A stretch of DNA of 64,000 nt, taken from the NCBI GenBank assembly GCA_014379965.1, contig JACMKU010000213.1:1-64000 (forward strand). Reading direction: 5' to 3'. Made by a program: the position numbers and the translations under genes. Below the pieces are notes generated by a model. The model was not told the origin of the DNA and did not search any database. It worked only from the letters and a program-made list of their open reading frames with translations. Positions 2,805-35,460 of the stretch are shown here, piece by piece (the stretch's first letter is position 1; each line of letters opens with the position of its first letter). This DNA is from Chitinophagaceae bacterium. Lineage in GTDB: Bacteria; Bacteroidota; Bacteroidia; Chitinophagales; Chitinophagaceae.

Positions 2805-2807
2805 GAA

Positions 2808-2837
2808 TTTTCCCCTTAAACTTAGTAGATATCTTTG
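2808..2837 (+). promoter_or_regulatory. Candidate Bacteroidota promoter for fecR
   Basis: TATCTTTG at 2830-2837 matches the -7 consensus TAnnTTTG exactly. TTTT at 2808-2811 sits 18 bp upstream, close to the -33 TTTG spacing. The fecR start follows 37 nt after the -7 box. This would give the anti-sigma factor a promoter of its own. The site was found by eye and not scored against background. Confidence 0.4.
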
Positions 2838-2874
2838 ATTTTCCTGTCTTTATAAAGACGAGGATAACTGCTGT

Positions 2875-3978
2875 ATGGATACACCCGGCCAAATCTGGCA
2901 TCTCATAGCCAAAACGCTCAACGGCGAAGCTTCCCGCCAGGAACAGGAGGAGCTCAGTCTCATCCTGCGCGAGGATGAAGCATTGCAGCAGCAGTATGAT
3001 GTGCTTACCCGCATCTGGTCAGAAAAAGAAAATTCCCTCGAGACTCCTAATAACGAGGACGCAAGAAACTCCATTTCCCGCATTATCAATAAAGCCGTGG
3101 TTGAAGCCCCGGTCGCAGAACTGCATTCCCCAGTCAAACGCATAAGCAGCAAGAGGTTATGGTATTCAGCAGCAGCCATATTGATCCTCGTTTCTGGTAG
3201 CTTATTTTGGAAGGCGCTCTCAGGCAGAAGTGAAAGCCCAAAGCAGGAAGCGTTGGAAGCGCGTAAGGGAAGCAGGACCCGGTCCCTCCTGCCAGACGGT
3301 ACCACTGTATGGCTGAACGCCGGTTCTAAACTTTATTATGATCATAACTTCTCTGAAAAGACACGGGAAGTCAGGCTAGAAGGTGAAGCTTTCTTCGATG
3401 TTGTCAAACAGGTCGACCGCCCGTTCATTGTTCATACTTCCGGCATCGATATCAAGGTGCTTGGTACCGCTTTCAACGTAAAATCATATCCCGAAGACAA
3501 GAATGTAGAGACCACATTATACCGCGGGCTGGTGCAAGTTTTTCGTCATGAAGAGACATCGAGCAAAGCAATTGAATTGAAACCAAATCAGAAGCTCATT
3601 CTCGCGAAGGAAGCAGCTAAAGAAACTGATGATTTGTCTCAGGAGATAAAGTCGATACCAACCAAGGCATTACCTGCCACATTCATCATTGCGCCGATTG
3701 ATAGTACGAAAAAGGAAAATGAAAGGTTTGAGACAGCGTGGCTATATAGTCGCCTTGAGTTTAGAGGAGATAGTTTCGAAGAATTGTCCAGGAAACTGGA
3801 AAGATGGTACAATGTCACCATTGTGTTTACAGATGAAGAGGTTAAACATTTAAATTTTAATGGATCATTTGAGAAGGAGACGATAACGCAAGCATTCGTG
3901 GCCCTGAAGACGGCCGTTCCATTCGATTATGAGACAAAAGGCAATGAAATATTCGTCAGTTCAAAAACTAGACGCTAA
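2875..3978 (+). CDS. FecR-family anti-sigma factor
   Basis: This is an inner-membrane anti-sigma regulator. The cytoplasmic N-terminus (about residues 1-95) is followed by one transmembrane helix at about 98-117 (LWYSAAAILILVSGSLFWKAL). A periplasmic FecR domain lies at about 130-225 (GSRTRSLLPDGTTVWLNAGSKLYY, EAFFDVVKQVDRPFIV, VLGTAFNVKSY). The C-terminal domain (about 290-362: LEFRGDSFEELSRKLERWYNVTIVF) resembles the STN-like domain usual in Bacteroidota FecR. At 367 residues the protein has standard length. It lies between the sigma factor and SusC. By family knowledge it contacts the SusC STN domain through its periplasmic part and releases the sigma factor on substrate import. Confidence 0.95.
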   Translation: MDTPGQIWHLIAKTLNGEASRQEQEELSLILREDEALQQQYDVLTRIWSEKENSLETPNNEDARNSISRIINKAVVEAPVAELHSPVKRISSKRLWYSAAAILILVSGSLFWKALSGRSESPKQEALEARKGSRTRSLLPDGTTVWLNAGSKLYYDHNFSEKTREVRLEGEAFFDVVKQVDRPFIVHTSGIDIKVLGTAFNVKSYPEDKNVETTLYRGLVQVFRHEETSSKAIELKPNQKLILAKEAAKETDDLSQEIKSIPTKALPATFIIAPIDSTKKENERFETAWLYSRLEFRGDSFEELSRKLERWYNVTIVFTDEEVKHLNFNGSFEKETITQAFVALKTAVPFDYETKGNEIFVSSKTRR

Positions 3979-9996: not shown

Positions 9997-12900
9997 ATGC
10001 TAAGGGTAACCATCAAAATTCTTTCGGCCTGTCTTCTCATAACATCATGTCGACAATCATCGGAAGGATTATTTGTTGAGATGTCACCCTCGTCTACCAA
10101 CATTCATTTCGAGAATAAACTGGAGAAAAAAAAACATCTTAATATACTCTACTACCTATATTATTACAATGGAGGCGGTGTCGCCACGGGTGACATCAAC
10201 AATGACGGACTACCGGATATCTACTTTACCGCTAATAGCAAGGGGAATAATAAACTTTACCTGAATAAAGGGAATTTCGAATTCGAAGACATAACCGAAA
10301 AAGCAGGTGTTGCCGGAACAGCTGACTGGTGCACCGGCGTGTCGATGGCCGATGTCAATAGTGATGGCTTACTTGATATATACGTGAGTGCTGTCAGCTC
10401 CAAATACGAGCTCACGGGCAACAACGAACTCTACTTAAATAAAGGCAATAATTCTTTCGTTCCGATGGCGAAGGAGTATGGTCTCAATTTCACAGGCTTT
10501 ACTACGCAGTCCGCCTTCTTCGACTATGACCGTGATGGTGACCTTGATTGCTACGTACTCAACCAATCGCAGCAACCCCATGCTAATATCGTCGACACTT
10601 CTAAACGCAGGAAGTACGATCCACAATCCGGTGATGTTTTATATAGGAATGATTTATCAACAACGGGCAGTTTTACAGATGTCTCAAAAGCGGCAGGTAT
10701 TTCTCAAAGTAATCTTGGTTACGGTCTCGGCATCGCAATCGGTGATATTGACAACGATGGCTGGGATGATGTGTACATAGGTAACGATTTTCATGAAAAC
10801 GATTATTACTACCACAACAATCAAGATGGCACGTTTACTGAGAGTGGCGCGAAGCACTTCGGGCATTACAGCAGGTTCAGTATGGGCAATGATGTAGCGG
10901 ATTATAATAATGACGGACAGTTGGATATCATAACAGTGGACATGCTGCCACCCGATGAGAAAACATTGAAGACTTACGGCAGTGATGAGAATCCGGATAT
11001 CTACAAGGTTAAGCTCGAGGTTCGGGGCTATCAGAATCAATACTCAAGGAATTGTCTCCAACGCAATAATGGAAATGGTGAGAGTTTCAGTGAGACGGCG
11101 CTAATGAGTGGAGTATCGGCCACAGACTGGAGCTGGGCCCCTCTGTTTGCCGATTTCGACAATGATGGAAATAAAGACCTGGTCATTTCGAGCGGGATTG
11201 TAAAGCGTCCCGTTGATCTCGACTACATCCGATTCGTTTCTGATTTGCAGACTAAGAAAGGCTTGAATCAAACGGATGAATATGACGATGTCGCCATTGA
11301 TGGAATGCCCGATGGCGGTTCTCACCCTTTCTTTTTCAAAGGAAGTGGCGAAAACTCATTCCAGGATGTCAGCAACGACTGGGGCACTGGAAAAATGAAA
11401 GGATACTACAACGGAACAGCATATGCCGATTTCGACAATGATGGCGATCTTGATCTCGTCATGAACTGCATAGATGAAAAAGCGTTGATGTTAAAAAACA
11501 ATGCCCCTCGTAAGCATTTCGTTTCGTTACAGTTTAAAGGCGATAGTGTAAACACTTTCGGCCTGGGAGCCAAAGCCTATGTATTCGCTGGGAACAAATT
11601 GCAATATCAACAATTGATGTTGACCAGGGGATTTCAATCCAGTTGTGATGCGAGGCTACATTTTGGCTTAGACAGTGTTGCCACCATCGATAGCCTCCTG
11701 GTCGTATGGCCTGATCAAAGGTTCCAGCTAATACGTAATCCCAAATCTAACCAGGGTCTCCAGGTGAATAAGGCGGATGCTTCCGGTCAATTCGACTACC
11801 AAAGTTTCTTTCCTGCTCCAAGTAGCCTGGTGGAAGAGATAGTACCAAAGAGCGATATGGGATGGACGCACAAGGAAAATGATTTCCTCGATTTCAATAT
11901 CCAATACCTGATACCTCACCAGCTATCGACACGGGGACCAAAAGTAGCGGTAGGCGATGTAAACAACGACGGACTGGATGACTTCTATGTCTGCGGCGCA
12001 ACCGGCCAGGCTGGAAGTCTAATGATCCGCAACAAGGATGGTAGATTCTCTTCGGCAGACACTGCGATCTTCAACCGTAATATCGTAAGTGAAGAAGTTG
12101 ACGCAATATTTTTTGACGCTAACAACGATGGATCGAAGGATCTCTATATAGTTAGTGGCGGAAATGAATTTCCTAACGGCCATGCGAACTATGCCGATAA
12201 GTTATTTCTAAATGACGGAAAAGGTCACTTCCGATTAGCGGATCGTCCGTTTCCCCCACAACTAACAAATAAATCATCTGTCGCCGCCGCAGATGTCGAT
12301 AAAGATGGAGACATAGACCTCTTCGTCGGCGGACTTTCTGATCCAAGAAAATATGGCTACGCACAAGCGTCATACCTGCTACTGAATGATGGCAAAGGAA
12401 ATTTCAAAGAAGCGGCCACGTCACTGGTAAAGCTTGATAATCTCGGAATGGTTACGTCTGCGGCATTTGCAGATGTCGATAACGACGCCGATCCGGATCT
12501 CTTAGTAACCGGTGAGTGGATGCCGCTGAAGATCTTCATGAATAATAATGGTATATTTTCTCCTGCAGATGTTCCCCAATCTACCGGTCTGTGGCAAACG
12601 ATTTGCACTACAGATGTCAATGGTGATGGCTTTGTAGACATACTTGCAGGAAACTGGGGGCATAACTCGAAACTATATGCTGGAAAATCAGGTCCCTTAA
12701 AACTTTACTCCAAGGATTTTGATAAGAATGGCACTACAGAGCAGGTAATGGCTTATACAATAGATGGTAATGAATATACATTCCTTTGTAAGGATGAATT
12801 GGAGCGTCCATTACCCGTATTGAAGAAGGCCTATCTTAAATATAGTGATGTCGCGGGGAAGACAGTGCAGTACATGTTCTACGACCTATTCAAGGATTAC

Positions 12901-13323
12901 CAGGAAATGAAAGCCGAGACGTTGACATCTTCTTGTTTTATTAATGATGGCAAAGGAAATTTTCGCCGGGAAGACCTGCCAGAAGAATTACAACTGGCAC
13001 CGGTATTTTCGTTTGTGCCATGGCAGCATGACGGAACAACGACCTACCTTGCAGGCGGTAATTTCTATGGTGTCATTCCTTATGAAGGACGGTACGATGC
13101 ACTGTTCCCAACCTTTTTTTCCTTTGATAAGGGCACCGGAACATTTAACCTAAATGGCAAACTCTCGATACCGCGAGGGGAAGTGAGAGATCTCAAAGTA
13201 TTCAGTAACGGAAATGGAGGCAAGACACTTCTGATCGCCAGGAACAATAACGACCTGCTGTTTTACCAGCCAAAGAACGCTGTTATTAATTCATCAATTA
13301 CAAAAGCAACTTATGCGAAATAA
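9997..13323 (+). CDS. Giant FG-GAP/VCBS-repeat and ASPIC/UnbV lipoprotein (CRTAC1-like)
   Basis: This 1108-residue lipoprotein has lipobox ITSC (Cys18). It carries many FG-GAP/VCBS repeats with calcium-binding DxNxDGxxD loops (DINNDGLPDIYF, DVNSDGLLDIYV, DYDRDGDLDCYV and others) in two blocks, about residues 55-500 and 645-900. They are split by an ASPIC/UnbV domain at about 515-580 (GLGAKAYVFAGNKLQYQQL, ending DSLLVVWPDQRFQ). The repeats would build beta-propellers on the cell surface. Relatives are common beside SusCD pairs in soil Bacteroidota and are thought to bind glycan or protein, but no activity is established. Its stop overlaps the next start by 11 bp, so it is translationally coupled to the GH30 gene. 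Confidence 0.88.
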   Translation: MLRVTIKILSACLLITSCRQSSEGLFVEMSPSSTNIHFENKLEKKKHLNILYYLYYYNGGGVATGDINNDGLPDIYFTANSKGNNKLYLNKGNFEFEDITEKAGVAGTADWCTGVSMADVNSDGLLDIYVSAVSSKYELTGNNELYLNKGNNSFVPMAKEYGLNFTGFTTQSAFFDYDRDGDLDCYVLNQSQQPHANIVDTSKRRKYDPQSGDVLYRNDLSTTGSFTDVSKAAGISQSNLGYGLGIAIGDIDNDGWDDVYIGNDFHENDYYYHNNQDGTFTESGAKHFGHYSRFSMGNDVADYNNDGQLDIITVDMLPPDEKTLKTYGSDENPDIYKVKLEVRGYQNQYSRNCLQRNNGNGESFSETALMSGVSATDWSWAPLFADFDNDGNKDLVISSGIVKRPVDLDYIRFVSDLQTKKGLNQTDEYDDVAIDGMPDGGSHPFFFKGSGENSFQDVSNDWGTGKMKGYYNGTAYADFDNDGDLDLVMNCIDEKALMLKNNAPRKHFVSLQFKGDSVNTFGLGAKAYVFAGNKLQYQQLMLTRGFQSSCDARLHFGLDSVATIDSLLVVWPDQRFQLIRNPKSNQGLQVNKADASGQFDYQSFFPAPSSLVEEIVPKSDMGWTHKENDFLDFNIQYLIPHQLSTRGPKVAVGDVNNDGLDDFYVCGATGQAGSLMIRNKDGRFSSADTAIFNRNIVSEEVDAIFFDANNDGSKDLYIVSGGNEFPNGHANYADKLFLNDGKGHFRLADRPFPPQLTNKSSVAAADVDKDGDIDLFVGGLSDPRKYGYAQASYLLLNDGKGNFKEAATSLVKLDNLGMVTSAAFADVDNDADPDLLVTGEWMPLKIFMNNNGIFSPADVPQSTGLWQTICTTDVNGDGFVDILAGNWGHNSKLYAGKSGPLKLYSKDFDKNGTTEQVMAYTIDGNEYTFLCKDELERPLPVLKKAYLKYSDVAGKTVQYMFYDLFKDYQEMKAETLTSSCFINDGKGNFRREDLPEELQLAPVFSFVPWQHDGTTTYLAGGNFYGVIPYEGRYDALFPTFFSFDKGTGTFNLNGKLSIPRGEVRDLKVFSNGNGGKTLLIARNNNDLLFYQPKNAVINSSITKATYAK

Positions 13324-14755
13324 ATATATCCTGTTCCCTTTAGTCTTCGGAATAACTACTCTATGTTGTTTTTGTACTAACAAAGGAACAGGGGGTGGAG
13401 GCACGCCCCCACCCCCTCCTACTCCCGGGCCCGAGGCAGAAGTTTGGATGACGAGAAGCAATGCGACCACATTATTGCAAAAGCAACCCGGCGTGTTCGC
13501 TTTCGGTACTACATCAAATAGTGATCCTTTCGTAGATGTTGACTCGGCCACGCGAATGCAATCAGTCGATGGTTTTGGATACACTTTGACCGGCGGAAGC
13601 GCTATGCTTCTAAATAGAATGAATGCGCCTGACAGGGCCGTCCTTCTTAGCGAATTGTTCGGCAACGGAGCCTCATCGATAGGTGTTAGTTACCTCAGGT
13701 TAAGCATTGGCGCATCGGACCTCAGCCCAACTGTCTTTAGCTACGACGATATGCCCACAGGCCAAACGGACGTGACACTAGCTAATTTCAGTCTTTCACA
13801 AGATACCGTGGACCTTATTCCCGTGTTGAAAGAGATCCTTGCAATCAACCCTGCAATCAAGCTGATGGGTTCCCCCTGGAGTCCTCCTGTATGGATGAAA
13901 GATAACGGTAGTTCAATAGGTGGAAGTCTACTCCCCCAATACTACAGCGTCTATGCGCAGTACTTTGTAAAATACATTCTTGCAATGAAAGCGAAAGGCA
14001 TCACCATCGATGCCATCACAATACAGAACGAACCGCAGCATGGAGGAAACAACCCTAGTATGTTGATGACCGCCACTCAACAAGCCGATTTTATTAAGGG
14101 ACATCTTGGACCTGCCTTCCAGGCAGCCGCGATTACCACCAAGATCATTGTGTGGGATCATAATTGTGATAACCCCGGCTACCCAATTACCGTTCTGAAC
14201 GATGTTGCAGCCCGTCAATTTATCAACGGTTCAGCATTTCACCTATATGCCGGCGACATCAGTGCTTTGACGCAGGTACATAATGCATATCCGGATAAGG
14301 ATTTATACTTCACGGAACAATGGACAGGAGCCAACGGTTCATTCGATGGCGATTTCAAATGGCACGTCAAAAATGTGGTCATTGGCTCAATGCGCAACTG
14401 GAGCAAGGTCGCGCTGGAGTGGAACCTGGCTAGCGATCAAGCTTACAATCCGCATACACCTGGTGGTTGTACAGAATGTAAGGGTGCAATTACTATCTCC
14501 GGCTCAGCAGTGAGCAGGAATGTCGGCTACTACATCATCGCGCAGGCATCGAAGTTCGTACCCGCCGGATCCGTGCGGATCGCAAGCAACCTGGTAGGGA
14601 TACTCCAAACCGTCGCCTTCCAGGCACCAGATGGAAAAAAGATCTTGATCGTATTGAATGAAGGGGCGAATGCCTCTCAATTTAATATTCGTTATAAAGG
14701 AAAATGGCTGAATACATCGGTGCCCGCAGGAACGGCATCAACATATATCTGGTAG
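13313..14755 (+). CDS. GH30-family glycoside hydrolase (beta-1,6-glucanase-like), lipoprotein
   Basis: This is a family GH30 retaining enzyme with (beta/alpha)8 barrel plus beta-sandwich. Predicted acid/base Glu240 lies in TIQNEPQ, and predicted nucleophile Glu335 in YFTEQW; GSPWSPPVWMKD is a family landmark at about 184-195. A C-terminal beta domain starts at about 390. The N-terminus has a hydrophobic stretch and cysteines (Cys18, 19, 21) followed by a glycine/proline-rich linker, which fits a surface lipoprotein. GH30 covers beta-1,6-glucanase, glucosylceramidase and xylanase activities. The GH16 and GH144 neighbours make beta-1,6-glucan the best guess. It overlaps the upstream gene by 11 bp. 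Confidence 0.9.
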   Translation: MRNKYILFPLVFGITTLCCFCTNKGTGGGGTPPPPPTPGPEAEVWMTRSNATTLLQKQPGVFAFGTTSNSDPFVDVDSATRMQSVDGFGYTLTGGSAMLLNRMNAPDRAVLLSELFGNGASSIGVSYLRLSIGASDLSPTVFSYDDMPTGQTDVTLANFSLSQDTVDLIPVLKEILAINPAIKLMGSPWSPPVWMKDNGSSIGGSLLPQYYSVYAQYFVKYILAMKAKGITIDAITIQNEPQHGGNNPSMLMTATQQADFIKGHLGPAFQAAAITTKIIVWDHNCDNPGYPITVLNDVAARQFINGSAFHLYAGDISALTQVHNAYPDKDLYFTEQWTGANGSFDGDFKWHVKNVVIGSMRNWSKVALEWNLASDQAYNPHTPGGCTECKGAITISGSAVSRNVGYYIIAQASKFVPAGSVRIASNLVGILQTVAFQAPDGKKILIVLNEGANASQFNIRYKGKWLNTSVPAGTASTYIW

Positions 14756-14841
14756 TAACGTCATTAGCTCTTATGTAATTCGCATGACTGGAACCTACCC
14801 CGTCTGTGGATCAACTATATTTTAATATCAATAAAGCCACA

Positions 14842-16317
14842 ATGAAAAAGAATCTTTTTGTTTTGATCACTCTCGCACTCTTCGCCTGCTCACAGACAAA
14901 GGATGCAAATCAAGACCAGCCTTCCGGAGCGGCCGGGGCCGCCTATTCCACTGATGGCAAGAAACCGCTCGTATACACTACTGCTGACACGGCCAATCTG
15001 AGGTTATCACTCACAGATACCCTCGAGTTCAAACAAATGGGTCAGCCCTTCGAAACACAGATCTGTGTATTCGTCGATCCCGATATGACTTTCCAAACCT
15101 ATTTCGGTACAGGTGCAGCACTTACAGACGCATCTGCAGAAACCTTTGCTAAGCTGCCCGCAGACAAACAGAAAGAATTCATGCAGGCCTACTTCGACAA
15201 GGAAAAAGGAATCGGATATACTGTTGCCCGTACGAATATCAACAGCTGCGACTTCAGCAGCGACATGTATACATACGTTTCCAATAACGATAAGGAATTG
15301 AAAACTTTCAATATCGATCACGACAGGAAGTACAAGATCCCGTTCATCAAGCAGGCAATTGCCGCGGCCGGTGGTAAGTTGGATCTTTTCGCCAGTCCCT
15401 GGAGTCCACCCGCCTGGATGAAAGACAATAACAACATGTTGCAGGGTGGAAAGCTAAAGCCTGATCATTACGCGAGCTGGGCGCTTTACTATACGAAGTT
15501 TATCAAGGAATATGAAAAGGAAGGAATTCCAGTTTGGGGCATCTCCATACAGAATGAGCCCATGGCAAAGCAACGTTGGGAGAGTTGCATATATACGGGA
15601 GAAGAAGAGACAGATTTTCTTAAAAATCATCTTGGCCCGACCATGCAAAAAGAAGGACTTGGTGACAAGAAGATCATTGTTTGGGATCATAATCGCGATT
15701 TAATCTACCAGCGTGCGCAGACCTATTTCAAGGACCCAGAGGCATCGAAATACATCTGGGGTATTGGTTTTCACTGGTACGAAGACTGGAGTGGTGGTCA
15801 ACCAATGTATGAGAACCTTAAGAGAGTTCATGAAGCATTTCCAGATAAGAATATTTTCTTCACTGAGGGTTGCGCTGAGAGTTTCGATGCCAAAAGATAT
15901 AATGCATGGGTGCTCGGTGAGGAGTATGGGCGTTCCATGATCAATGATTTCAATAACGGTATGGTAGGCTTCACCGATTGGAATATTCTACTCGATGAGA
16001 CAGGAGGTCCTAATCACGTACAGAACTTCTGCTTCGCCCCTGTCCATGGAGATACTAAGACTGGAAAACTTATTTACACCAATTCATATTATTACATCGG
16101 ACATTTTTCGAAGTTCATAAAGCCCGGCGCGAAGAGGGTAAGCAGCGCAGCCAGCCGAAGCCAGTTGCTAACGACTGCATTCAGGAACGAAGATGGAAAG
16201 ATGGTCGTTGTTGTAATGAACCAGGGAAGTGGGCGGTTTCCTTATTATATATGGATCAACGGGCAAGCTGCAGAAGTGCAGGCTCTTCCGCACTCTATCA
16301 ATACGATTGTGTTCTAA
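14842..16317 (+). CDS. Second GH30-family glycoside hydrolase, lipoprotein
   Basis: This is a second GH30 enzyme, clearly diverged from its upstream neighbour. A GTG 36 bases upstream is in frame, but the ATG at 14842 begins a clean lipoprotein signal (MKKNLFVLITLALFAC), so it is taken as the start (491 residues). The acid/base is predicted as Glu239 in SIQNEPMAKQRWESC and the nucleophile as Glu342 in FFTEGCAESFD. The FASPWSPPAWMKDN landmark and ADKQKEFMQAYFDKEKGIGYTVARTNI are typical of the glucosylceramidase/beta-1,6-glucanase branch. Two GH30 enzymes in one operon may split endo and exo steps; this cannot be told from the sequence. Confidence 0.92.
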   Translation: MKKNLFVLITLALFACSQTKDANQDQPSGAAGAAYSTDGKKPLVYTTADTANLRLSLTDTLEFKQMGQPFETQICVFVDPDMTFQTYFGTGAALTDASAETFAKLPADKQKEFMQAYFDKEKGIGYTVARTNINSCDFSSDMYTYVSNNDKELKTFNIDHDRKYKIPFIKQAIAAAGGKLDLFASPWSPPAWMKDNNNMLQGGKLKPDHYASWALYYTKFIKEYEKEGIPVWGISIQNEPMAKQRWESCIYTGEEETDFLKNHLGPTMQKEGLGDKKIIVWDHNRDLIYQRAQTYFKDPEASKYIWGIGFHWYEDWSGGQPMYENLKRVHEAFPDKNIFFTEGCAESFDAKRYNAWVLGEEYGRSMINDFNNGMVGFTDWNILLDETGGPNHVQNFCFAPVHGDTKTGKLIYTNSYYYIGHFSKFIKPGAKRVSSAASRSQLLTTAFRNEDGKMVVVVMNQGSGRFPYYIWINGQAAEVQALPHSINTIVF

Positions 16318-16334
16318 CTTAAAGATCGAATATC

Positions 16335-18011
16335 ATGCGCAGAATAGTGAGTTCAATAATAGTGGGGTGCTGCATTTTTGTAGCGTGCGGTAAAGGTGGC
16401 GATCCTGCGCCTCCCCCTCCTCCACCGGCACCCGTGAATTTTGGAATCAGTTCCTGGACGGTGAATGGCGTCCCCGGCCAGACGATTAACTATAATGTTC
16501 CAAGAAATGCACCTATTCGTTTTCAATTCGGCGCCGCAATCAACCGTGCGACCGTGGCTTCAAACATTAGATTCCAGGATAATTCTGCTGTAGCGATTAA
16601 TGCCACTGTATCTTACTCAAACGGCGACAGTGTTATCATCCTGCAACCGACGAGCCCTCTCAATTATCTTTCGAGGTATCATGTGACTGTGACAGATCAA
16701 CTAAAGTCTACAACCGGCGGAAGACTAGTTACCGGTACAGATCTTACACTAACGACGATAATCGATTCATCAAGAAAATTTCCTATTATAACGGATAATG
16801 AATTGCTAGAGCTTGTACAAAAACAGACTTTCAAATACTTCTGGGATTTCGGGCACCCTGTAAGCGGACTGGCAAGAGAACGCAATACTTCAGGTGAAAC
16901 AATTACATCGGGCGGATCTGGCTTCGGCATGATGTCGATCGTTACTGGGATCAGCCGCGGATTCATCACGAGACCACAAGGTTTGACCCGGTTGCAAACC
17001 ATGGTTAGCTTCCTGAAGAATACCGCCCAGAAATTTCACGGGGCATTCCCACACTGGCTCAATGGTAGCACAGGTGTCGCGATTCCTTTTAGCACGAAGG
17101 ACAACGGCGCCGATCTTGTCGAGACTTCCTACCTCATGATGGGGCTCCTGACTGCAAGACAGTACTTCAATACCGCCGATCCAGCCGAGGTCACCTTACG
17201 CAATGATATCAACAGCATTTGGAATGGAGTCGAGTGGAATTGGTTCAGGCAGAATAATCAAAATGTTCTGTACTGGCACTGGAGTCCAAATTATAATTGG
17301 GAAATGAATCATCCTATTCGGGGATGGAACGAATGCCTGATAACATATGTCCTGGCCGCTTCATCCACAACTTTCTCCATACCGCCCATCGTCTATACCG
17401 CAGGCTGGGCGGGCAATGGGACGAATGGATTTATCAACGGAGGAAGTTATTATGGAATTCCGTTGCCACTTGGTCCTGCCTATGGCGGACCTCTCTTCTT
17501 CGAACACTACAGTTTTATGGGGATTAAGCCAACGGGATTAAGCGATGCTTATGCGAATTACCAAACGCAAACAACAAATCACACCCGGATCAACTATGAA
17601 CATAGTCGCGCCAATCCAGCTAATCATTTTGGTTATAGCGATTCGGTGTGGGGATTGACGGCTAGCGACATCCCTAATGGATACGCAGCCAGTTCTCCGA
17701 CAAATGATATCGGCGTTATCGCACCAACCGCGGCCCTTTCATCTTTCCCGTACACACCGATAGAGTCGATGAAAGCGCTCAAGTTTTTCTATTATGTACT
17801 CGGCGATAAGCTTTGGGGCCAATATGGATTCAAAGATGCGTTCTCATTAAAAGACATCTGGTTTGCGGATTCATACCTGGCCATTGACCAGGGACCTATT
17901 ATCGTGATGATTGAAAATTATCGTACAGGATTGTTGTGGAATTTATTTACGAGCTGTCCCGAGGTGAAAGCGGGCATGTTATCACTAGGCTTCACCGCTC
18001 CCTACCTATGA
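16335..18011 (+). CDS. GH144-type glucoamylase-domain enzyme with N-terminal Ig-like domain, lipoprotein
   Basis: The lipoprotein signal ends at VAC (Cys18), followed by a proline-rich linker (about 24-33) like that of the first GH30. An SbsA-like Ig domain lies at about 36-135, and the 'glucoamylase'/GH144 (alpha/alpha)6 domain at about 150-555. Conserved blocks are KQTFKYFWDFGHPVSGLARER, YWHWSPNYNWEMNHPIRGWNECLITY, WGLTASDIPNGY, IAPTAALSSFPYTP and IDQGPIIVMIENYRTGLLW. GH144 holds the endo-beta-1,2-glucanase described from Chitinophaga and an exo-acting sophorose-releasing relative from Parabacteroides. This is the first of three paralogues here and the only one with an added domain. It is likely surface exposed. 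Confidence 0.88.
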   Translation: MRRIVSSIIVGCCIFVACGKGGDPAPPPPPPAPVNFGISSWTVNGVPGQTINYNVPRNAPIRFQFGAAINRATVASNIRFQDNSAVAINATVSYSNGDSVIILQPTSPLNYLSRYHVTVTDQLKSTTGGRLVTGTDLTLTTIIDSSRKFPIITDNELLELVQKQTFKYFWDFGHPVSGLARERNTSGETITSGGSGFGMMSIVTGISRGFITRPQGLTRLQTMVSFLKNTAQKFHGAFPHWLNGSTGVAIPFSTKDNGADLVETSYLMMGLLTARQYFNTADPAEVTLRNDINSIWNGVEWNWFRQNNQNVLYWHWSPNYNWEMNHPIRGWNECLITYVLAASSTTFSIPPIVYTAGWAGNGTNGFINGGSYYGIPLPLGPAYGGPLFFEHYSFMGIKPTGLSDAYANYQTQTTNHTRINYEHSRANPANHFGYSDSVWGLTASDIPNGYAASSPTNDIGVIAPTAALSSFPYTPIESMKALKFFYYVLGDKLWGQYGFKDAFSLKDIWFADSYLAIDQGPIIVMIENYRTGLLWNLFTSCPEVKAGMLSLGFTAPYL

Positions 18012-18056
18012 GAATACCCAGCAATCTCGTCGGCTAAATTCTTAAAAACCTAAGAA

Positions 18057-18857
18057 ATGAACAGGAAACATCTCCTGATTTCGGCACTATTGATGTCTAT
18101 TCTTTTCGCTTGCAACTCGCCGAAATCCGACTGGGAATTAGTGTGGGGCGATGAATTTAATTACAATGGCCTGCCCGACACAACTAAATGGAACTATGAT
18201 ACCGCCAGCAATGGCGGCTGGGGAAACAACGAACTACAATACTACACTTACCGCGATACTGCCAATGCACGGGTAGAGAATGGGCAGTTGGTCATTGAAG
18301 CAAGGAAGGAAAAAATCGATTCCTTTAACTATAGTTCTGCGAGACTTATTACTGAGGGTAAAGCGGCCTGGCAGTATGGAAAAATGGAAGTTCGCGCAAG
18401 AGTACCCTCGGGTGTCGGCTCATGGCCAGCCATCTGGACACTCGCGGAAGGCATAAAAGTCTGGCCCGACGACGGCGAGATCGACATCATGGAGCATGTC
18501 GGTCACAACCAGGGTTATGTACATGGATCCATTCATTGTAAGCAATACAATCATATCATAGGAACCCAAAAGACAGACACCACATTTGTGCCTGATTGTT
18601 CAACTGCATTTCATGTGTATTCAATGGAATGGGACAGCACTGTAATCAACGTCGCTATAGATGGCAAACCCTTCTTTACTTTCCCTAATGAAAAGAAAGG
18701 CTATGAATACTGGCCTTTTGACAACAAAATGTACCTGATCCTAAACATCGCAGTAGGTGGTAACTGGGGAGGTCAGAAAGGTGTCGATGACAGCATCTTC
18801 CCTATACGAATGGAAATAGACTATGTAAGAGTATACCAGAAAACCAACAATAAATGA
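18057..18857 (+). CDS. GH16-family endo-beta-1,3-glucanase (laminarinase-like), lipoprotein
   Basis: This 266-residue lipoprotein (lipobox LFAC, Cys19) carries a single GH16 jelly-roll domain. The catalytic signature ExDxxE is present as GEIDIMEHVG, with predicted nucleophile Glu141, Asp143 and acid/base Glu146. Other landmarks are WGNNELQYYT, GKMEVRARVPSGVGSWPAIWTL and NIAVGGNWGGQKG. The extra residue in the EIDIME motif and the surrounding sequence are of the laminarinase type, not the agarase or carrageenase type. Its stop overlaps the ATGA start of the next GH144 gene, so the two are translationally coupled. The expected reaction is endo-cleavage of beta-1,3 or mixed-linkage glucan. Confidence 0.93.
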   Translation: MNRKHLLISALLMSILFACNSPKSDWELVWGDEFNYNGLPDTTKWNYDTASNGGWGNNELQYYTYRDTANARVENGQLVIEARKEKIDSFNYSSARLITEGKAAWQYGKMEVRARVPSGVGSWPAIWTLAEGIKVWPDDGEIDIMEHVGHNQGYVHGSIHCKQYNHIIGTQKTDTTFVPDCSTAFHVYSMEWDSTVINVAIDGKPFFTFPNEKKGYEYWPFDNKMYLILNIAVGGNWGGQKGVDDSIFPIRMEIDYVRVYQKTNNK

Positions 18858-20158
18858 GAACCCGCTTAATTGCAACAGTTTTTCTTCTGCTACCGGCAAC
18901 CATGTTTTCCCAGAAAAAGGAACTGTCGGATTCGGCACTGCTTGACCTTGTACAGAAACAAACCTTCCGATATTTCTGGGATTTTGCTCACCCCGTGAGC
19001 GGATTGTCGAGAGAACGCAGCAATGCGAATTTCGGTTATGGCCACGAAGTAGTCACAACCGGTGGTACTGGATTCGGCATCATGTCCGTGATCGTTGCAA
19101 CACAACGCGGATGGATTGCAAGGGATACCGCAGCAAGGTTCATGCTGAAGATGGTAAACTTTTTATTGAAGGCGAATTCGTACCATGGCGTATTTGCACA
19201 TTGGCTCGATGGCGCGACGGGTAAGACGATCCCGTTTAGCAGGAAGGATGATGGCGCCGATCTCGTAGAGACCTCCTATCTCTTCCAGGGTCTACTCTGT
19301 GCGAGACAGTATTTCAACGGCGACTCTCGCACAGAGCGTGAGTTAAGGAATAGAATTGGTTGGATGTGGTCGGGCATAGAATGGGATTGGTTTACCAAGG
19401 GCGGCCAGGAAGTGCTCTACTGGCACTGGAGTCCTAACAACGGCTGGGCTATGAACTTCCCTGTTCGTGGATTCAACGAATGCCTGATCATGTATATTCT
19501 CGCTGCAAGTGGCGATAACTATCCTGTGAGCCCTGCAGTATATCATCGGGGTTGGGCTGAGAGCAATTTCTTTAAAAATGGAAAAGAGTTCTACGGACAT
19601 AAGTTACCCCTGGGTTTCGATTATGGTGGCCCCCTGTTTTTTTCACAATACTCTTTCCTTGGCTTGGATCCGCGGGGCTTGAAAGACAGGTATGCCGACT
19701 ATTGGGAGCAAAACAGAAATCATACGCTAATCAATCGAGAACATTGCGTACGGAATCCAAAAAAGTTTAAAGGATATTCAGAGAGTTGCTGGGGCCTGAC
19801 TGCGAGCGATACGTATAATGGTTACGATGCCCACTCTCCCACTAATGATAATGGCACAATCACTCCGACAGCGGCATTATCAGCGTTTCCCTATACTCCG
19901 GAATATTCCATGAAGGCGTTGAGGCATTTCTATTATGATCATGGTGATAAGATTTGGAGCGAGTACGGTTTCGTAGATGCCTTTAACGAAACGAAGAATT
20001 GGACAGCGGAATCACATCTCGCCATCGACCAGGGGCCGATAATAGTGATGATAGAAAATTATCGCACCGGCCTCCTTTGGAAATTGTTCATGAGCTGCCC
20101 CGAGATACAAAGAGGATTGAAGAAACTAGGGTTTGAAAGCCCGGCCTTAAAGAATTGA
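18854..20158 (+). CDS. GH144-type glucoamylase-domain enzyme, secreted
   Basis: This is the second GH144-type paralogue, with 434 residues and an SPI signal peptide (MRTRLIATVFLLLPATMFSQ), so it is periplasmic or exported, not lipidated. The family blocks are all present: KQTFRYFWDFAHPVSGLSRER, YWHWSPNNGWAMNFPVRGFNECLIMY, FFSQYSFLGLDPRG, WGLTASDTYNGYDAHSPTND and IDQGPIIVMIENYRTGLLWKLF. It shares a 4-bp overlap with the GH16 gene. The difference in localisation from the lipoprotein paralogue suggests consecutive steps on the same beta-1,2-glucan: surface endo-cleavage, then periplasmic trimming. This division is inference. Confidence 0.9.
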   Translation: MRTRLIATVFLLLPATMFSQKKELSDSALLDLVQKQTFRYFWDFAHPVSGLSRERSNANFGYGHEVVTTGGTGFGIMSVIVATQRGWIARDTAARFMLKMVNFLLKANSYHGVFAHWLDGATGKTIPFSRKDDGADLVETSYLFQGLLCARQYFNGDSRTERELRNRIGWMWSGIEWDWFTKGGQEVLYWHWSPNNGWAMNFPVRGFNECLIMYILAASGDNYPVSPAVYHRGWAESNFFKNGKEFYGHKLPLGFDYGGPLFFSQYSFLGLDPRGLKDRYADYWEQNRNHTLINREHCVRNPKKFKGYSESCWGLTASDTYNGYDAHSPTNDNGTITPTAALSAFPYTPEYSMKALRHFYYDHGDKIWSEYGFVDAFNETKNWTAESHLAIDQGPIIVMIENYRTGLLWKLFMSCPEIQRGLKKLGFESPALKN

Positions 20159-20185
20159 GCCGTAGGCAAATGACCATTCAGCCAT

Positions 20186-21424
20186 ATGAAGAATTGTATA
20201 TTAATATTAATCCTATTAACAGCGACTGGTATTTTGCGAGCTCAAAAAGCCCGGAAGGCTATCTTCGTGATTGCAGATGGCATACCCGCCGATGTGATCG
20301 AATCTCAGAAGACTCCCGCATTAAAGGAAATCGCGAAGGAAGGTGGTTATGCCCGCGCCTATGTTGGAGGTGAGAAAGATGGATACTCTCAAAGTCCTAC
20401 CATTTCCGCAGTGGGGTACAATAGTCTTCTCACCGGTACCTGGGCGAATAAACACAATGTTTGGGACAATGATATAACCGCTCCGAATTATAACTACTGG
20501 AACGTCTTCCGCTTATTAGAAACGCAATACCCAAAAAAGAAGACAGCTGTTTTTTCAACTTGGTTGGACAATCGCACAAAACTGGTCGGAAGCGAAGCAA
20601 AAGCGGCAGGCAACCTTCAACCCGATTACTTCCTCGACGGGCTCGAACTGGATACCATTCGTTTCCCACACGATACTGCCGGATATTTTTATTACCTCAT
20701 AGATGAGACTGTAACGGACAAGGCCGCCGAGACAATACGAAAATCCGCGCCGGATCTCACTTGGATTTACCTCGAATACACCGATGAGATGGGTCACAGA
20801 CATGGAGATGGTGACAAGATGAACGATGCTGTAGAAAAAATGGACAAGCAGATAGGTCGCATCCGTGAGGCAATGAAGTATAGGGAAAAAAACTTCAAAG
20901 AAGATTGGGTCATCTTCATCACCACCGATCACGGACGTGATTCGCTTAAAGGTCATGATCATGGAGGACAAAGCGACAGGGAAAGAACGACGTGGATTGT
21001 AACCGATGCCGCTGATTTGAACGAACGTTTTACAAAGCAGCGTCCCGGCATAGTCGATATCCTGCCGACACTTACTAGATTTTTACAGTTGACAATGACG
21101 CGGGAAAGGCTGAGGGAAGTAGATGGAGTATCGCTAACCGGAAAGCTTTCAGCCACCGATGCAAAAGCTGTTTATAGAAAAGATAAAATCCGTGTCACCT
21201 GGAAGCCAATACTCCAAAAAGGGTTGGCCCGGGTGTACTTATCAACTACCGATTCTTTTGCTATTGGAGGGCATGATAAGTACAGGCTGGTACAACAAGT
21301 ACCCGTTGCAAATGGAGCAACCGAGTTTGATGTTAGCAAGTATCCTTCTGAAGTTTATAAAATATCGATCGAGATGCCCTATAATTTATTAAACACGCGC
21401 ATCGTGATCGGGAAGAAAAATTAA
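20186..21424 (+). CDS. Alkaline-phosphatase-superfamily phosphodiesterase (NPP-like), secreted
   Basis: This is a type I phosphodiesterase/nucleotide-pyrophosphatase-like protein of 412 residues with an SPI signal (ILILILLTATGILRAQ). All metal and nucleophile positions of the superfamily can be found: Asp31 in VIADGIPAD, a Thr or Ser nucleophile in SPTISAVGYNSLLTGTW, Asp and His in YTDEMGHRHG, Asp-His in FITTDHGRD, and His in GHDHGGQ. The C-terminal part (about 310-412) is a beta-rich extension. The CxPSR sulfatase motif is absent, so it is not a formylglycine sulfatase. It sits between two GH144 genes in a tight operon. That position suggests removal of phosphoglycerol or phosphoethanolamine groups from a beta-1,2-glucan; this is inference. 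Confidence 0.8.
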   Translation: MKNCILILILLTATGILRAQKARKAIFVIADGIPADVIESQKTPALKEIAKEGGYARAYVGGEKDGYSQSPTISAVGYNSLLTGTWANKHNVWDNDITAPNYNYWNVFRLLETQYPKKKTAVFSTWLDNRTKLVGSEAKAAGNLQPDYFLDGLELDTIRFPHDTAGYFYYLIDETVTDKAAETIRKSAPDLTWIYLEYTDEMGHRHGDGDKMNDAVEKMDKQIGRIREAMKYREKNFKEDWVIFITTDHGRDSLKGHDHGGQSDRERTTWIVTDAADLNERFTKQRPGIVDILPTLTRFLQLTMTRERLREVDGVSLTGKLSATDAKAVYRKDKIRVTWKPILQKGLARVYLSTTDSFAIGGHDKYRLVQQVPVANGATEFDVSKYPSEVYKISIEMPYNLLNTRIVIGKKN

Positions 21425-21442
21425 TCGACATAACGCAATATT

Positions 21443-22879
21443 ATGCTTCGCCAACTAACCATAGTTGCTATTACCATAACCTTTACAGGGCTGTTGCATG
21501 CGCAGACGAAATCATCCTCAGCCCGTAATAACGCCGTTGCAATTACACCCGTCGGAATAATTAAGAACCTTTCAGATACGGCACTACTAGAGGTGGTCCA
21601 GCGACAGACCTTCCGATTCTTCTGGGAAGGCGCCCACCCCGTTAGCGGTCTCGCCCTCGAACGAAGCAATACGGTTCTGGCGGAACATTACTGGGATTAC
21701 ATCAATGAAGCCTGGGATGAGCCTAATTTCAGCAAGACTAAGTTTGGTCCAGACGCTGGCGCCATCGGCGGCACCGGTTTTGGCATCATGAGCACCATTG
21801 TCGCAGTGGAACGCGGATGGATCGGGAGAGATACGGCCATCCGGCGACTTATAAAGATTGCGGACTTCCTTATAAACGCCGATTGCTATCACGGAATCTA
21901 TCCGCACTTCATGAACGGCCGAACTGGCAAGACAATACGATTTGACCGGCTGGATGATGGCGCAGACATCGTCGAAACATCGTATCTGCTAATGGGTTTC
22001 CTCTGCGCACGGGAATACTTTACCGGGAAAACTCCTCGCGAAATATATCTCCGCAAAAGGATCGACCAGATGTGGGGTGCAGCCAACTGGAACTGGCACA
22101 CAAAAGGCGAGAACAAACTATACTGGCACTGGAGTCCTTATAACGGATTCGATATGAACTTTCCGGTGTGGGGATGGAATGAATGCCTGATCACCTACAT
22201 CCTTGCAGCATCTTCGCCGCGACATGGAATATCAAAACAGGTATATGATGGCACCTGGACCGGTAGCAATGGCTTCAAGAATGGTAAGACATACTATGGC
22301 TACACACTGCCATTAGGGAATTATGATAGAGGTGGCCCTTTGTTCTTCGAGCAGTATACCTTTCTCGGTATAGATCCCAATGGCCTGAAGGATACTATCG
22401 GCATCGACTATTTCGAACAGGCGCGCAATCACACCCTGATCAATCGTGCCTATTGCATTGAGAATCCAAAGAAGTTTAAAGGGTATGGTGAGAACTGCTG
22501 GGGACTTACTGCCGGAGATAGTTACAAAGGTTACGTCGCGCATTGTCCAGAAGTCGATTTCGGAGTAATTCAACCGACTGCAGCCATATCTTCAATCCCC
22601 TTTACCCCGAAGGAAAGCATGGACGCTATTCGTCATTTCTATTACAATCTTGGCGACAAAATCTGGAGTAAGTACGGTTTCGTGGATGGATTCAGCATTC
22701 ATCACAATTGGTACGCAAAATCTCACCTGGCAATAGACCAGGGGCCGATCGTAGTAATGATTGAAAATTACAGGACGGGACTACTATGGAAATTATTCAT
22801 GAAGATCCCGGACATACAGAATGGATTGAAGAAGCTGGGATTTTCCAGCCCGTGGATCAAAGACGATAAGAAGAACTGA
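21443..22879 (+). CDS. Third GH144-type glucoamylase-domain enzyme, secreted
   Basis: This 478-residue protein has an SPI signal (MLRQLTIVAITITFTGLLHAQ). The glucoamylase/GH144 domain covers about 45-470: RQTFRFFWEGAHPVSGLALER, YWHWSPYNGFDMNFPVWGWNECLITY, FFEQYTFLGIDPNGLKD, WGLTAGDSYKGYVAHCPEVDFG and IDQGPIVVMIENYRTGLLWKLF. Compared with the other two it has an insertion of about 20 residues after LALERSN (EHYWDYINEAWDEPNFSKT). It also has Gly in place of Ser in the WGLTAGD block and an altered segment after YVAHCPEVD, where the others read SPTND. The changes near this conserved loop hint at different chain-length specificity or an exo mode. Confidence 0.88.
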   Translation: MLRQLTIVAITITFTGLLHAQTKSSSARNNAVAITPVGIIKNLSDTALLEVVQRQTFRFFWEGAHPVSGLALERSNTVLAEHYWDYINEAWDEPNFSKTKFGPDAGAIGGTGFGIMSTIVAVERGWIGRDTAIRRLIKIADFLINADCYHGIYPHFMNGRTGKTIRFDRLDDGADIVETSYLLMGFLCAREYFTGKTPREIYLRKRIDQMWGAANWNWHTKGENKLYWHWSPYNGFDMNFPVWGWNECLITYILAASSPRHGISKQVYDGTWTGSNGFKNGKTYYGYTLPLGNYDRGGPLFFEQYTFLGIDPNGLKDTIGIDYFEQARNHTLINRAYCIENPKKFKGYGENCWGLTAGDSYKGYVAHCPEVDFGVIQPTAAISSIPFTPKESMDAIRHFYYNLGDKIWSKYGFVDGFSIHHNWYAKSHLAIDQGPIVVMIENYRTGLLWKLFMKIPDIQNGLKKLGFSSPWIKDDKKN

Positions 22880-22918: not shown

Positions 22919-24085
22919 ATGAGTACCATCACGCGACAAAAATTTCTTCAGTACACTGCGGCAGCGGGTGCCGCCGCACTCCTTTCATCCCTGGAAGGAT
23001 TTGCACTGCAACGACCGGACAAAAAACTCCGGGTTGCCATTATCGGTTGCGGTAGCGTTAGCAACAGATATATACCGCATCTGCAGACTTCTTCATTGAT
23101 AGAAATAGTCAGCCTTTGTGACATCAAATATGATCGTGCTTTAGCCCAGGCGAAACAATACAATGTACAGGCGAGTACGTACCCGAACATTGATAAGATG
23201 CTCGCAGGCGTTCCATTCGACATGATGGTGACGCTCACGGATATGCAGGCACACGGGATGTTGAATAAGAAAGCTCTGCTAGCCGGCAAACACGTATGGA
23301 GCGAGAAGCCCATGGCAAATACCTATGCCGAGGGTAAAGCATTATTCGATCTGGCAAAATCAAAGAAGCTGAGGATATGGGGAGCGCCTGCTGTAGTGAA
23401 CAGTCCGCAATTTGTGTTCATGAGCAAGGCTATACAAGAGGGCAAACTTGGCCGTGTGGCTAGTGCACATGGCCAATACGGTCACACAGGTCCTACATGG
23501 AGCGCCTTCTTCTATGAGAAACTAGGTGGAAGTATGCCCGATCTTGGCGTATATAACATGGCAACACTTACGGGACTTCTTGGACCTGCAAGATCGGTGA
23601 TGGCAATGACGAGCATCATTAAACCCGAGAGAAAGATAGACGATAAAGGTATTATCAAAGTAGAGGCAGAGGACAATGCGCACGTGCTGCTCGAACATGA
23701 CAAAGGTGTGATATCACACGTAATGTGTGGATTTAACTATTTCGATCCGCACGGGCACGAGGCTACCAACCAGACGCTTCATTCTATTCAGATATACGGC
23801 GACTATGGCAATCTGAGATTGATAGGATATGATTGGGAAACGAACGGCGTCTACCTGGATAACTCATGGACGGAGCCACCGAAATTACACCAGAAGGATT
23901 CCGAAGGTTATCAATGGCAGGAAGGTGCAACCAAGGTTGGAGAAGCAATGATGAAGGGAGTCGAACCGAGAATTAATGCCGAGCATGCACTTCATGTCCT
24001 GGAGATCATCGAGGCAGCAAGAAAATCTTCTGCTACGGGAATGAAAGTGAAATTGAAGAGCAAATTTAAGTGGCCGATGGTGTGA
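22919..24085 (+). CDS. Gfo/Idh/MocA-family oxidoreductase with signal-like N-terminus
   Basis: This 388-residue NAD(P)-dependent sugar oxidoreductase has an N-terminal Rossmann fold (RVAIIGCGSVSNRYIPHL, with the nucleotide loop at about 43-48) and a C-terminal alpha/beta domain. It carries the EKPMANT motif with the conserved lysine. An N-terminal hydrophobic alanine-rich stretch (about 10-30) follows TRQKFLQ and looks like a Tat-type leader with only one arginine. Many Bacteroidota Gfo/Idh proteins beside GMC oxidoreductases are exported and act on sugars or 3-keto-sugars. It is the last gene of the glucan operon, 39 bp after the third GH144. The substrate is unknown. Confidence 0.87.
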   Translation: MSTITRQKFLQYTAAAGAAALLSSLEGFALQRPDKKLRVAIIGCGSVSNRYIPHLQTSSLIEIVSLCDIKYDRALAQAKQYNVQASTYPNIDKMLAGVPFDMMVTLTDMQAHGMLNKKALLAGKHVWSEKPMANTYAEGKALFDLAKSKKLRIWGAPAVVNSPQFVFMSKAIQEGKLGRVASAHGQYGHTGPTWSAFFYEKLGGSMPDLGVYNMATLTGLLGPARSVMAMTSIIKPERKIDDKGIIKVEAEDNAHVLLEHDKGVISHVMCGFNYFDPHGHEATNQTLHSIQIYGDYGNLRLIGYDWETNGVYLDNSWTEPPKLHQKDSEGYQWQEGATKVGEAMMKGVEPRINAEHALHVLEIIEAARKSSATGMKVKLKSKFKWPMV

Positions 24086-24089
24086 GGGG

Positions 24090-24182: not shown

Positions 24183-24189
24183 TCCTGAC

Positions 24190-25427: not shown

Positions 25428-25442
25428 ATCTCAAGAGATCAT

Positions 25443-34247: not shown

Positions 34248-34273
34248 CTCCTCACGAGAGTAAACAATGCTTG

Positions 34274-35458: not shown

Positions 35459-35460
35459 GT

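Follow-up and report, generated by a model that had tools for sequence, protein, structure and literature searches.

A GH144-linked branch of Bacteroidota phosphodiesterases and its possible role in beta-1,2-glucan utilization

Why should a phosphodiesterase be encoded among glucan-degrading enzymes? The question is raised by a 64,000-nucleotide stretch of Chitinophagaceae contig JACMKU010000213.1 (the window), in which positions 13313-22879 hold seven co-directional genes encoding GH30, GH30, GH144, GH16, GH144, a PF01663 phosphodiesterase (PDE) and GH144. An earlier note on this DNA had described the seven genes as a tight operon and proposed that the PDE strips phospho-groups from the periplasmic glucans of other bacteria, with fungal-type glucan as a second food. 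The gene order and the tight spacing were confirmed (intergenic gaps of -4 to +86 bp), as was the location of the PDE between two GH144 genes, with GH144b before it (27 bp gap) and GH144c after it (18 bp gap). The extent required revision, as the run is part of a larger SusC/D-type locus spanning about 2.1-34.2 kb (Table 1).

Table 1. Features of the SusC/D-type locus in the window; leaders, whether lipoprotein-like or plain signal peptides, are predictions.
Position	Strand	Feature	Basis
2124..3978	+	Probable regulatory pair: ECF sigma factor, FecR anti-sigma factor	Pfam PF08281, PF04773/PF16344
4113..9001	+	SusC-type TonB receptor and SusD (SusD_RagB) lipoprotein	Pfam PF07715/PF13715, PF07980/PF14322
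9057..9923	+	LamG-fold lipoprotein, probable glycan-binding protein	Pfam PF13385; lipobox
9997..13323	+	FG-GAP / ASPIC-UnbV repeat protein	Pfam PF13517, PF07593
13313..14755	+	GH30a lipoprotein, like endo-beta-1,6-glucanase BT3312	Pfam PF02055 E 4.8e-41
14842..16317	+	GH30b lipoprotein (start at ATG 14842 by choice; ORF tool begins at GTG 14806)	Pfam PF02055 E 1.1e-76
16335..18011	+	GH144a lipoprotein, Big_5 domain N-terminal to catalytic domain	PF10091 E 1.7e-67
18057..18857	+	GH16 laminarinase-like lipoprotein	Pfam E 1.5e-24; PDB 3iln 297 bits
18854..20158	+	GH144b, plain signal peptide	PF10091 E 1e-82
20186..21424	+	PDE, GH144-linked branch, plain signal peptide	PF01663 E 1.8e-21
21443..22879	+	GH144c, plain signal peptide, directly after PDE	PF10091 E 2.5e-80
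22919..24085	+	Gfo/Idh/MocA oxidoreductase, Tat-like leader (by eye)	Pfam PF01408/PF22725
24190..25017	+	PhyH-type 2-oxoglutarate oxygenase	Pfam PF05721
25014..27167	+	DoxX membrane protein and GMC oxidoreductase	PF07681; PF05199/PF00732
27274..34247	+	Interval of four genes: GH43 with F5/8C domain, then GDSL esterase, GH97 and GH3 at the positions below	Pfam
29215-29898	+	GDSL esterase	Pfam
29926-31935	+	GH97	Pfam
31947-34247	+	GH3	Pfam

Glycosidases of the locus

The three PF10091 proteins were assigned to GH144, the beta-1,2-glucanase family, because of their PDB matches over the catalytic domain to CpSGL of Chitinophaga pinensis, a proven beta-1,2-glucanase (PDB 5gzh; E 3e-164 for GH144b, 8e-141 for GH144c and 1e-138 for GH144a). 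Judged by alignment, all three retain the catalytic residues: counting along the alignments, CpSGL E142/E211 correspond to E263/E333 in GH144a, E139/E209 in GH144b and E178/E247 in GH144c. The Parabacteroides GH144 protein BDI_3064 (PDB 5z06), which reportedly has exo activity and releases sophorose, was also matched (2e-129 by GH144b, 1e-106 by GH144c and 1e-119 by GH144a), but the nearest solved relative of the three is 4gl3. In contrast to the single CpSGL used for comparison, the window has three paralogues in one locus, and no PF10091 gene beyond these three was found in the 4.73 Mb assembly, rated 90.4% complete. Two papers describe CpSGL E211 as the general acid and give the role of the acidic residue E142 (PMC12102758, PMC11842490), and the second also mentions an exo activity for GH144.

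GH30a and GH30b were filed as GH30 only, because their scores against the NCBIfam model NF053856 (endo-beta-1,6-glucanase, BT3312 type) of 374.6 and 259.1 bits are under the curated cut-off of 700. GH30a matched PDB 5ngk with 271.8 bits, whereas GH30b was nearer to glucosylceramidase-type GH30 (PDB 2wnw 276 bits and human GBA1 255, versus 194 for 5ngk). BT3312 is said to be the GH30 of a fungal beta-1,6-glucan locus of Bacteroides; a GH30 of that kind is common to both loci.

Active site, fold and leader of the phosphodiesterase

PDE residues D31, S74, N95, D200, H204, D248, H249 and H259 were invariant in 45/45 aligned rows (the alignment was made without L036), bearing out the complete alkaline-phosphatase-superfamily metal set that had been claimed. 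S74 takes the place of the nucleophile and aligns to an NPP threonine, which we take to be the NPP nucleophile. A W-x-DNRT motif (126-131) was likewise conserved across the PDE family. The PDE model (pLDDT 87.7) matched XaNPP 7n1s with Z 25.1 and an rmsd of 2.7 over 256 residues. A fold search intended to name the substrate returned Z values of 24.6-25.5 with mono- and diesterases tied, and so the fold neither separates diesterase from monoesterase nor gives a substrate. The superfamily fold and metal set are common to the PDE and Xanthomonas NPP (2gsn), ENPP7 (5tcd), SPAP and PafA, while identity to these NPPs and phosphatases is about 15-21% over the aligned part.

Identity as a sulfatase was rejected: the Sulfatase model scored 30.5 bits (cut-off 25), but PF01663 scored 77.6, and no sulfatase signature motif is seen at S74. 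A comparison of catalytic Lys/Arg residues with PafA through the long relative L021 was also abandoned, as L021 was unlike PafA by eye. In three same-genus loci (L034, L035 and L036) the PDE leader is lipoprotein-like, so the predicted compartment of the enzyme varies.

Linkage of the phosphodiesterase to GH144

Related loci were drawn from the top 55 rows of a longer match list, window included, with G230 fragments and lower rows left out; L173, which has no GH144c over 60% identity, was dropped, and the counts refer to 54 GH144c loci. Judged by length, the contigs of L047, L050, L055 and L068 are the same as those of L035, L034, L037 and L038, respectively, and those of L132, L150 and L151 the same as those of L044, L045 and L078, each contig being entered at most once per count or tree. 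Since regions were about 20 kb, and 11/54 were under 15 kb, neighbour counts are lower bounds, with undercounting worst for GH3 and GH43. The PDE is an optional part of these loci, as only 9/54 have it, and a PDE in every GH144c locus is thereby ruled out. A second kind of phosphoesterase (EEP) was present in 4/54, one of them with the PDE, and an FG-GAP / ASPIC-UnbV protein in 27/54.

The PDE tree also takes in L036, L039, L040 and L041; L100, whose PDE ORF was not recovered, was left out, and the L128 PDE, cut by a contig end, is in no tree. All 10 GH144-linked PDEs lie within one 11-row branch of the 84-row tree (support 100/99), and the GH144-linkage label changes twice on this tree, versus 9.6 times in shuffles. 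The remaining row, L048, lacks a GH144 gene in the 10 kb around its PDE; two are present elsewhere in its genome, which is one of seven that were chosen rather than sampled. With L048 counted in the linked branch, 7/9 diagnostic substitutions in the 45-row alignment fall at residues 85-172 (Fisher p 0.0015, for a region picked after the positions were known), between the nucleophile and the second metal motif, and include E/D136 to S; four control clades showed no such clustering there (p 0.13 to 0.97). Linkage persists at about 55-66% PDE identity across Flavisolibacter, Ferruginibacter and other lineages. The single branch and its retention across several lineages make a chance neighbourhood of PDE and GH144 unlikely.

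On the GH144c tree PDE presence requires 7 changes, at least 5 of them forced, which does not support a single insertion beside GH144c, whereas in the PDE tree the linked enzymes form a single branch. Two histories would fit this distribution: the PDE may have been present ancestrally and lost from some loci, or it may have been transferred from one such locus to another.

The neighbourhoods of other family members bear on the main rival explanation, in which an enzyme for general phosphorus scavenging has moved into a glucan locus. There the PDE would act on soluble phosphodiesters (of lipid head groups, nucleotides or nucleic acid) and play no part in glucan use. Among the 80 best PDE-family loci, with the family identity of each neighbour checked on one representative, the recurrent neighbours are SusC, SusD-like_2 (in 19, directly upstream), acid phosphatase (in 10, directly downstream) and metallophosphoesterase (in 9). 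Outside the linked branch, 30/74 rows lie less than 10 kb from a gene for SusD-like_2, acid phosphatase or metallophosphoesterase, which is a phosphorus-scavenging setting (for L036 and L040 the SusD2 label was assigned manually, and the neighbour labelling does not extend to L039 and L041). In L036 and L150 the PDE retains its own SusC-like and SusD2 pair inside the GH144 locus.

Flavobacterium is known to have low-phosphate loci that pair PusCD with a phosphodiesterase (PMC8115612), and PMC6499787 reports 576 susC/D loci without CAZymes that hold PF00149/PF01663 phosphodiesterases, with nucleic acid as the suggested target. The combination of SusC/D and phosphodiesterase is common to the Flavobacterium loci and ours, and many PDE relatives occur in similar loci. 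The window locus differs in being rich in glycosidases and in having a SusD of the SusD_RagB rather than the SusD-like_2 type; where a PUS locus has phosphatases or phosphodiesterases replacing CAZymes beside SusCD, it holds GH30, GH144, GH16 and GH3. Scavenging would also account for a PDE found in so few GH144c loci. Against it stand the single branch with its clustered substitutions, the short gaps to both flanking GH144 genes and the linkage kept across lineages. Of the phosphatase kinds sought, acid phosphatase or metallophosphoesterase lay beside 0/10 linked PDEs versus 14/74 others, too few to decide. The same absence weighs against a glucan role too, in which a phosphate may be left behind on the sugar. 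On balance we regard scavenging as possible but rather unlikely.

A decorated beta-1,2-glucan as the candidate substrate

Osmoregulated periplasmic glucans (OPGs) occur in most Gram-negative bacteria (PMC10514313); that paper and PMC3818809 give group-1 glucans a beta-1,2 backbone, beta-1,6 branches and phosphoglycerol, phosphoethanolamine and succinyl groups, and PMC11842490 states that the substituted positions on OPGs had not been identified. Among the 54 loci, GH144a was found in 38, GH144b in 36, GH30 in 24 and GDSL esterase in 17 (including 3 of the 9 PDE loci), versus GH16 in two, the window and L125. The GH30, GDSL esterase and GH16 frequencies fit group-1 glucans and, because GH16 is rare and GH30 common, the locus core fits the beta-1,2 backbone and beta-1,6 branches of proteobacterial periplasmic glucans better than a fungal wall. 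We judge the chances about even that this is a polysaccharide-utilisation locus (PUL) for a beta-1,2-glucan that also contains beta-1,6 linkages, and in this case beta-1,3 ones, most like the OPGs of other Gram-negative bacteria, and that the PDE removes its phosphodiesters.

Fungal walls also contain phosphodiesters, for example where a GPI remnant joins wall protein to beta-1,6-glucan and in mannan, and one paper reportedly deals with phosphate removal in yeast-mannan loci. Were the fungal wall the food, with the PDE cutting these bonds, the resemblance of GH30a to BT3312 and of GH16 to laminarinases would be explained, but not the frequency of GH144a and GH144b relative to GH16, and fungal walls are not, to our knowledge, rich in beta-1,2-glucan. 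We consider this very improbable, and the proposal of fungal-type glucan as a second food has weaker support, if any, leaning as it does on GH16.

Gfo/Idh labels occurred in 31/54 loci, commonly after GH144c, although some (about 24% identity) are paralogues since labels are best BLAST hits. PhyH was present in 11/54 and an SDR-ROK-SIS module in 14/54, never together, and a Rieske protein like GbcA is added in three loci. This repertoire would suit a modified beta-1,2-linked glucoside as the true substrate, with PDE, Gfo/Idh, PhyH and GMC acting on the modification. SusC/D, GH30 and GH3, however, suit a polymer, and we know of no pathway joining Gfo/Idh, PhyH, GMC and PDE; this alternative appears improbable.

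The analysis establishes the gene identities, a complete PDE active site, predicted leaders and a PDE branch tied to GH144; for the decorated OPG-like glucan, the substrate, the compartments, the order of action and the side on which the phosphodiester is cut are inferred. The surface lipoproteins GH144a, GH30a, GH30b and GH16 would cleave the glucan, SusC/D would take the pieces into the periplasm, and periplasmic GH144b, GH144c and GH3 would complete degradation. The PDE, recruited from a Bacteroidota family often found beside phosphatases, would work within the cell envelope, cutting phosphoglycerol-, phosphoethanolamine- or phosphocholine-type phosphodiester substituents off beta-1,2-glucan oligosaccharides and letting the other enzymes pass along them. 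Removal of glucan phospho-groups, as first proposed, is favoured by the GH144 identities with their catalytic residues, the GH144-tied branch, the complete PDE active site, the predicted leaders and the second phosphoesterase kind (EEP) in some loci; the presence of the PDE in a minority of loci, the SusC/SusD-like_2 and phosphatase partners of the family elsewhere, and the varying compartment weigh against it. More tentatively, the PDE branch may have become dedicated to removing phosphoglycerol, phosphoethanolamine or phosphocholine from the periplasmic glucans of bacteria. The locus would then consume the decorated glucans of Proteobacteria and draw both carbon and phosphorus from them, which we think possible though on the doubtful side. 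We know of no earlier degradative enzyme dedicated to this phospho-decoration, and the PDE would then be the first. Phosphoglycerol transferase II of E. coli only moves the group between glucans (PMC3818809).

The Bacteroidetes GH144 PULs of PMC6499787, like ours, combine SusC/D with GH144 and are interpreted as serving beta-1,2-glucan use. In the marine examples the added enzyme is a sulfatase and the authors propose a sulfate-decorated beta-1,2-glucan, whereas here it is a PDE with a putative phosphodiester decoration; the idea of a decorated beta-1,2-glucan locus is therefore already in print for sulfate. In that paper GH144 and phosphodiesterase appear in separate passages, the phosphodiesterase loci being those without CAZymes. 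Among the papers listed in a literature search, judged mostly by abstract and with few subscription journals covered, none dealt with a GH144 locus that includes a phosphodiesterase.

If the reading is correct, bacterial envelope glucans would be a food with phosphorus attached, and a PDE specific for periplasmic glucans would be an analytical tool for their substituent groups. The idea could be tested in culture, as the named type strain Flavisolibacter ginsengisoli DSM 18119 (L044) has a similar arrangement, with four PF10091 genes and the PDE directly before GH144c.

Layout of the locus and its glycosidases

ORF calling and Pfam matching recovered, at the coordinates stated, the seven genes reported by an earlier note, which had called them a tight operon. 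Intergenic gaps are -4 to +86 bp. The seven occupy the central part of a longer series of genes that all read in one direction. The assembly that contains the window totals 4.73 Mb in 221 contigs (rated 90.4% complete); the window lies on its 97.8 kb contig C58, and the three GH144 genes are the only PF10091 genes found in the assembly.

Features of the window in and around the seven-gene block
Feature	Position	Setting	Basis
ECF sigma, FecR	2124-3978	upstream of the seven genes, co-directional	domain matches
SusC, SusD, LamG lipoprotein		upstream, co-directional	
FG-GAP/ASPIC protein (1,108 residues)	9997-13323	upstream, co-directional	
GH30a, GH30b, GH144a, GH16, GH144b, phosphodiesterase (PDE), GH144c	13313-22879	seven-gene block	ORF calling, Pfam
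Gfo/Idh, PhyH, DoxX, GMC, GH43, GDSL esterase, GH97, GH3	reaching 34247	downstream, co-directional	
Second carbohydrate cluster: DUF2961, CBM9-like, GH123, DUF5107/BDI_1685-like, another GH3	34250-46331	next	

GH144a, GH144b and GH144c each align with CpSGL, the proven beta-1,2-glucanase of Chitinophaga pinensis (5gzh), with BDI_3064 and with other solved members (closest solved chain for each, 4gl3). All three retain the CpSGL catalytic-site residues E142 and E211 in the alignment, which supports the claim of three GH144-type enzymes. GH30a best matched the endo-beta-1,6-glucanase BT3312 (5ngk, 272 bits), and GH30b was closer to glucosylceramidase-type GH30 (2wnw, 276 bits; GBA1, 255; 5ngk, 194), a relationship with which removal of single beta-1,6-glucosyl branches would fit. 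The GH16 was laminarinase-like by sequence comparison. Leader types were assigned by pattern check rather than SignalP, and by visual inspection for SusD and some of the cysteine positions: lipoprotein-like for GH144a, GH30a, GH30b, GH16, LamG, SusD and the FG-GAP protein, and plain signal peptides for GH144b, PDE, GH144c, GDSL and GH3. Unlike the window PDE, three same-genus copies (L034, L035, L036) have a lipoprotein-like leader.

The phosphodiesterase and its relatives

The PDE matched PF01663 (77.6 bits), and its structure model (pLDDT 87.7, pTM 0.87; loop 88-97 partly <50) resembled SPAP, cofactor-independent phosphoglycerate mutase, XaNPP, PafA and ENPP7 with tied Z scores of 24.6-25.5. 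Every metal-site position was invariant in 45/45 aligned rows. Thus the Pfam match and modelled fold settle the superfamily, and discriminate neither the substrate nor a diesterase from a monoesterase.

A contig scan returned at least 589 stretches encoding PDE relatives, and neighbours were analyzed for 79 of the best 80 (L100 was dropped). Among these best-scoring loci, GH144 lay within 10 kb in 8/79, SusC was a neighbour in 33 (two genes upstream in 20), SusD-like_2 was immediately upstream in 19, a HAD-type acid phosphatase (PF03767), which we take to be e(P4)-like, was immediately downstream in 10, and a metallophosphoesterase was present in 9; the last three families were verified on one representative each. 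These settings resemble the PusCD phosphate-utilisation loci known in Flavobacterium (excerpts of PMC8115612), and also the 576 susC/D loci that lack CAZymes but encode PF00149 or PF01663 phosphodiesterases (excerpts of PMC6499787). For the window PDE, the strongest counter-reading is pure phosphorus scavenging, which many of its relatives probably perform.

Among the relatives retrieved, the closest PDEs from named genomes were mostly from Chitinophagaceae. In a tree of 84 PDEs (the 79 loci, the window, L036, L039, L040 and L041), all 10 rows with a nearby GH144 gene fell within one 11-row branch (support 100/99); its remaining member, L048, comes from a Flavihumibacter soli genome that encodes two GH144-domain proteins at other sites. 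Outside the branch, 30/74 rows had neighbours labelled SusD-like_2, acid phosphatase or metallophosphoesterase. Nine alignment positions distinguish the branch, and seven lie at residues 85-172, between the nucleophile and the second metal motif (Fisher p 0.0015, indicative only, the boundary having been chosen post hoc); comparable clustering was absent in four other PDE clades tested (p 0.13, 0.97, 0.40, 0.93). We read this clustering as an altered substrate pocket.

Occurrence of the phosphodiesterase in GH144c loci

Searching GH144c against 294 genomes of the family gave 174 matches at E 1e-100 or better, and the 55 top-scoring yielded 54 usable loci. These top loci contained GH144a (38/54), GH144b (36), Gfo/Idh (31), FG-GAP (27), either GH30 kind (24; GH30a 22, GH30b 19), GH43 (22), GH3 (19), GDSL (17) and GH16 (2). 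The PDE was found in 9/54, an EEP (endonuclease/exonuclease/phosphatase-family) phosphoesterase in 4, a metallophosphoesterase in 1, and any of the four phosphoesterase kinds looked for in 13. The PDE is an optional component of GH144c loci; on a GH144c tree of the 54 loci plus L046 and L070, its presence needed seven changes, at least five of them forced. In L036 and L150 it stands behind a SusC-like/SusD-like_2 pair, adjoining GH144c, and in L139 and L148 such a pair precedes GH144c with the PDE missing; the PDE looks like a piece of an exchangeable unit.

The EEP protein (~283 aa; L131, L144, L146, L151, L046) is a candidate second phosphoesterase, and L046 and L151 hold both it and the PDE. 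After GH144c and Gfo/Idh (window 22919-27167), loci carry either a PhyH set (11/54, including the window) or an SDR-ROK kinase set (14/54; mostly with SIS isomerase and MetE-like proteins, some with NagB and UlaG-like), never together (0/54).

Periplasmic glucan as the proposed substrate

In group 1 of the periplasmic glucans, a beta-1,2-linked backbone bears beta-1,6 branches; in groups 2, 3 and 4 the glucans are cyclic, with beta-1,2 links, beta-1,2 links plus a single alpha-1,6 link, and beta-1,3/1,6 links, respectively (excerpts of PMC10514313). E. coli glucans bear phosphoglycerol, phosphoethanolamine and succinyl groups (excerpts of PMC3818809). The conserved core of GH144, GH30 and esterase matches group 1 in linkage and ester decoration, though the GDSL esterase accompanies the PDE in only 3/9 PDE loci; the window's additional GH16 and GH97 could extend the range to the other groups. 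On this reading the locus may feed on periplasmic glucan, and the PDE would strip phosphodiester groups from the oligosaccharides. The PDE would be placed with GH144b and GH144c, whose genes adjoin its own and whose leaders are of the same kind in the window.

Every single component of the locus is of a known kind, and GH144 loci of marine species that include a sulfatase to remove a decoration have already been proposed (excerpts of PMC6499787). No description of a GH144 locus with its own phosphodiesterase branch was found in the openly licensed literature searched. A sulfatase-family protein in two PDE-bearing GH144c loci, L128 (2043-3590) and L150, recalls the marine loci.

Some GH144c operons encode a Rieske oxygenase (L138:16061-17263; L036, with a MetE-like methyltransferase; L128), whose presence may hint at a substrate that carries methyl or choline groups. 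The L138 copy scored 368.5 bits against glycine betaine monooxygenase GbcA, under the cut-off of 670. In four Bacteroidota genomes (G320, G321, G323, G325) a PF10091 domain lies in open frames of ~2,900 residues, roughly as large as cyclic beta-1,2-glucan synthases; some Bacteroidota may themselves produce beta-1,2-glucan.
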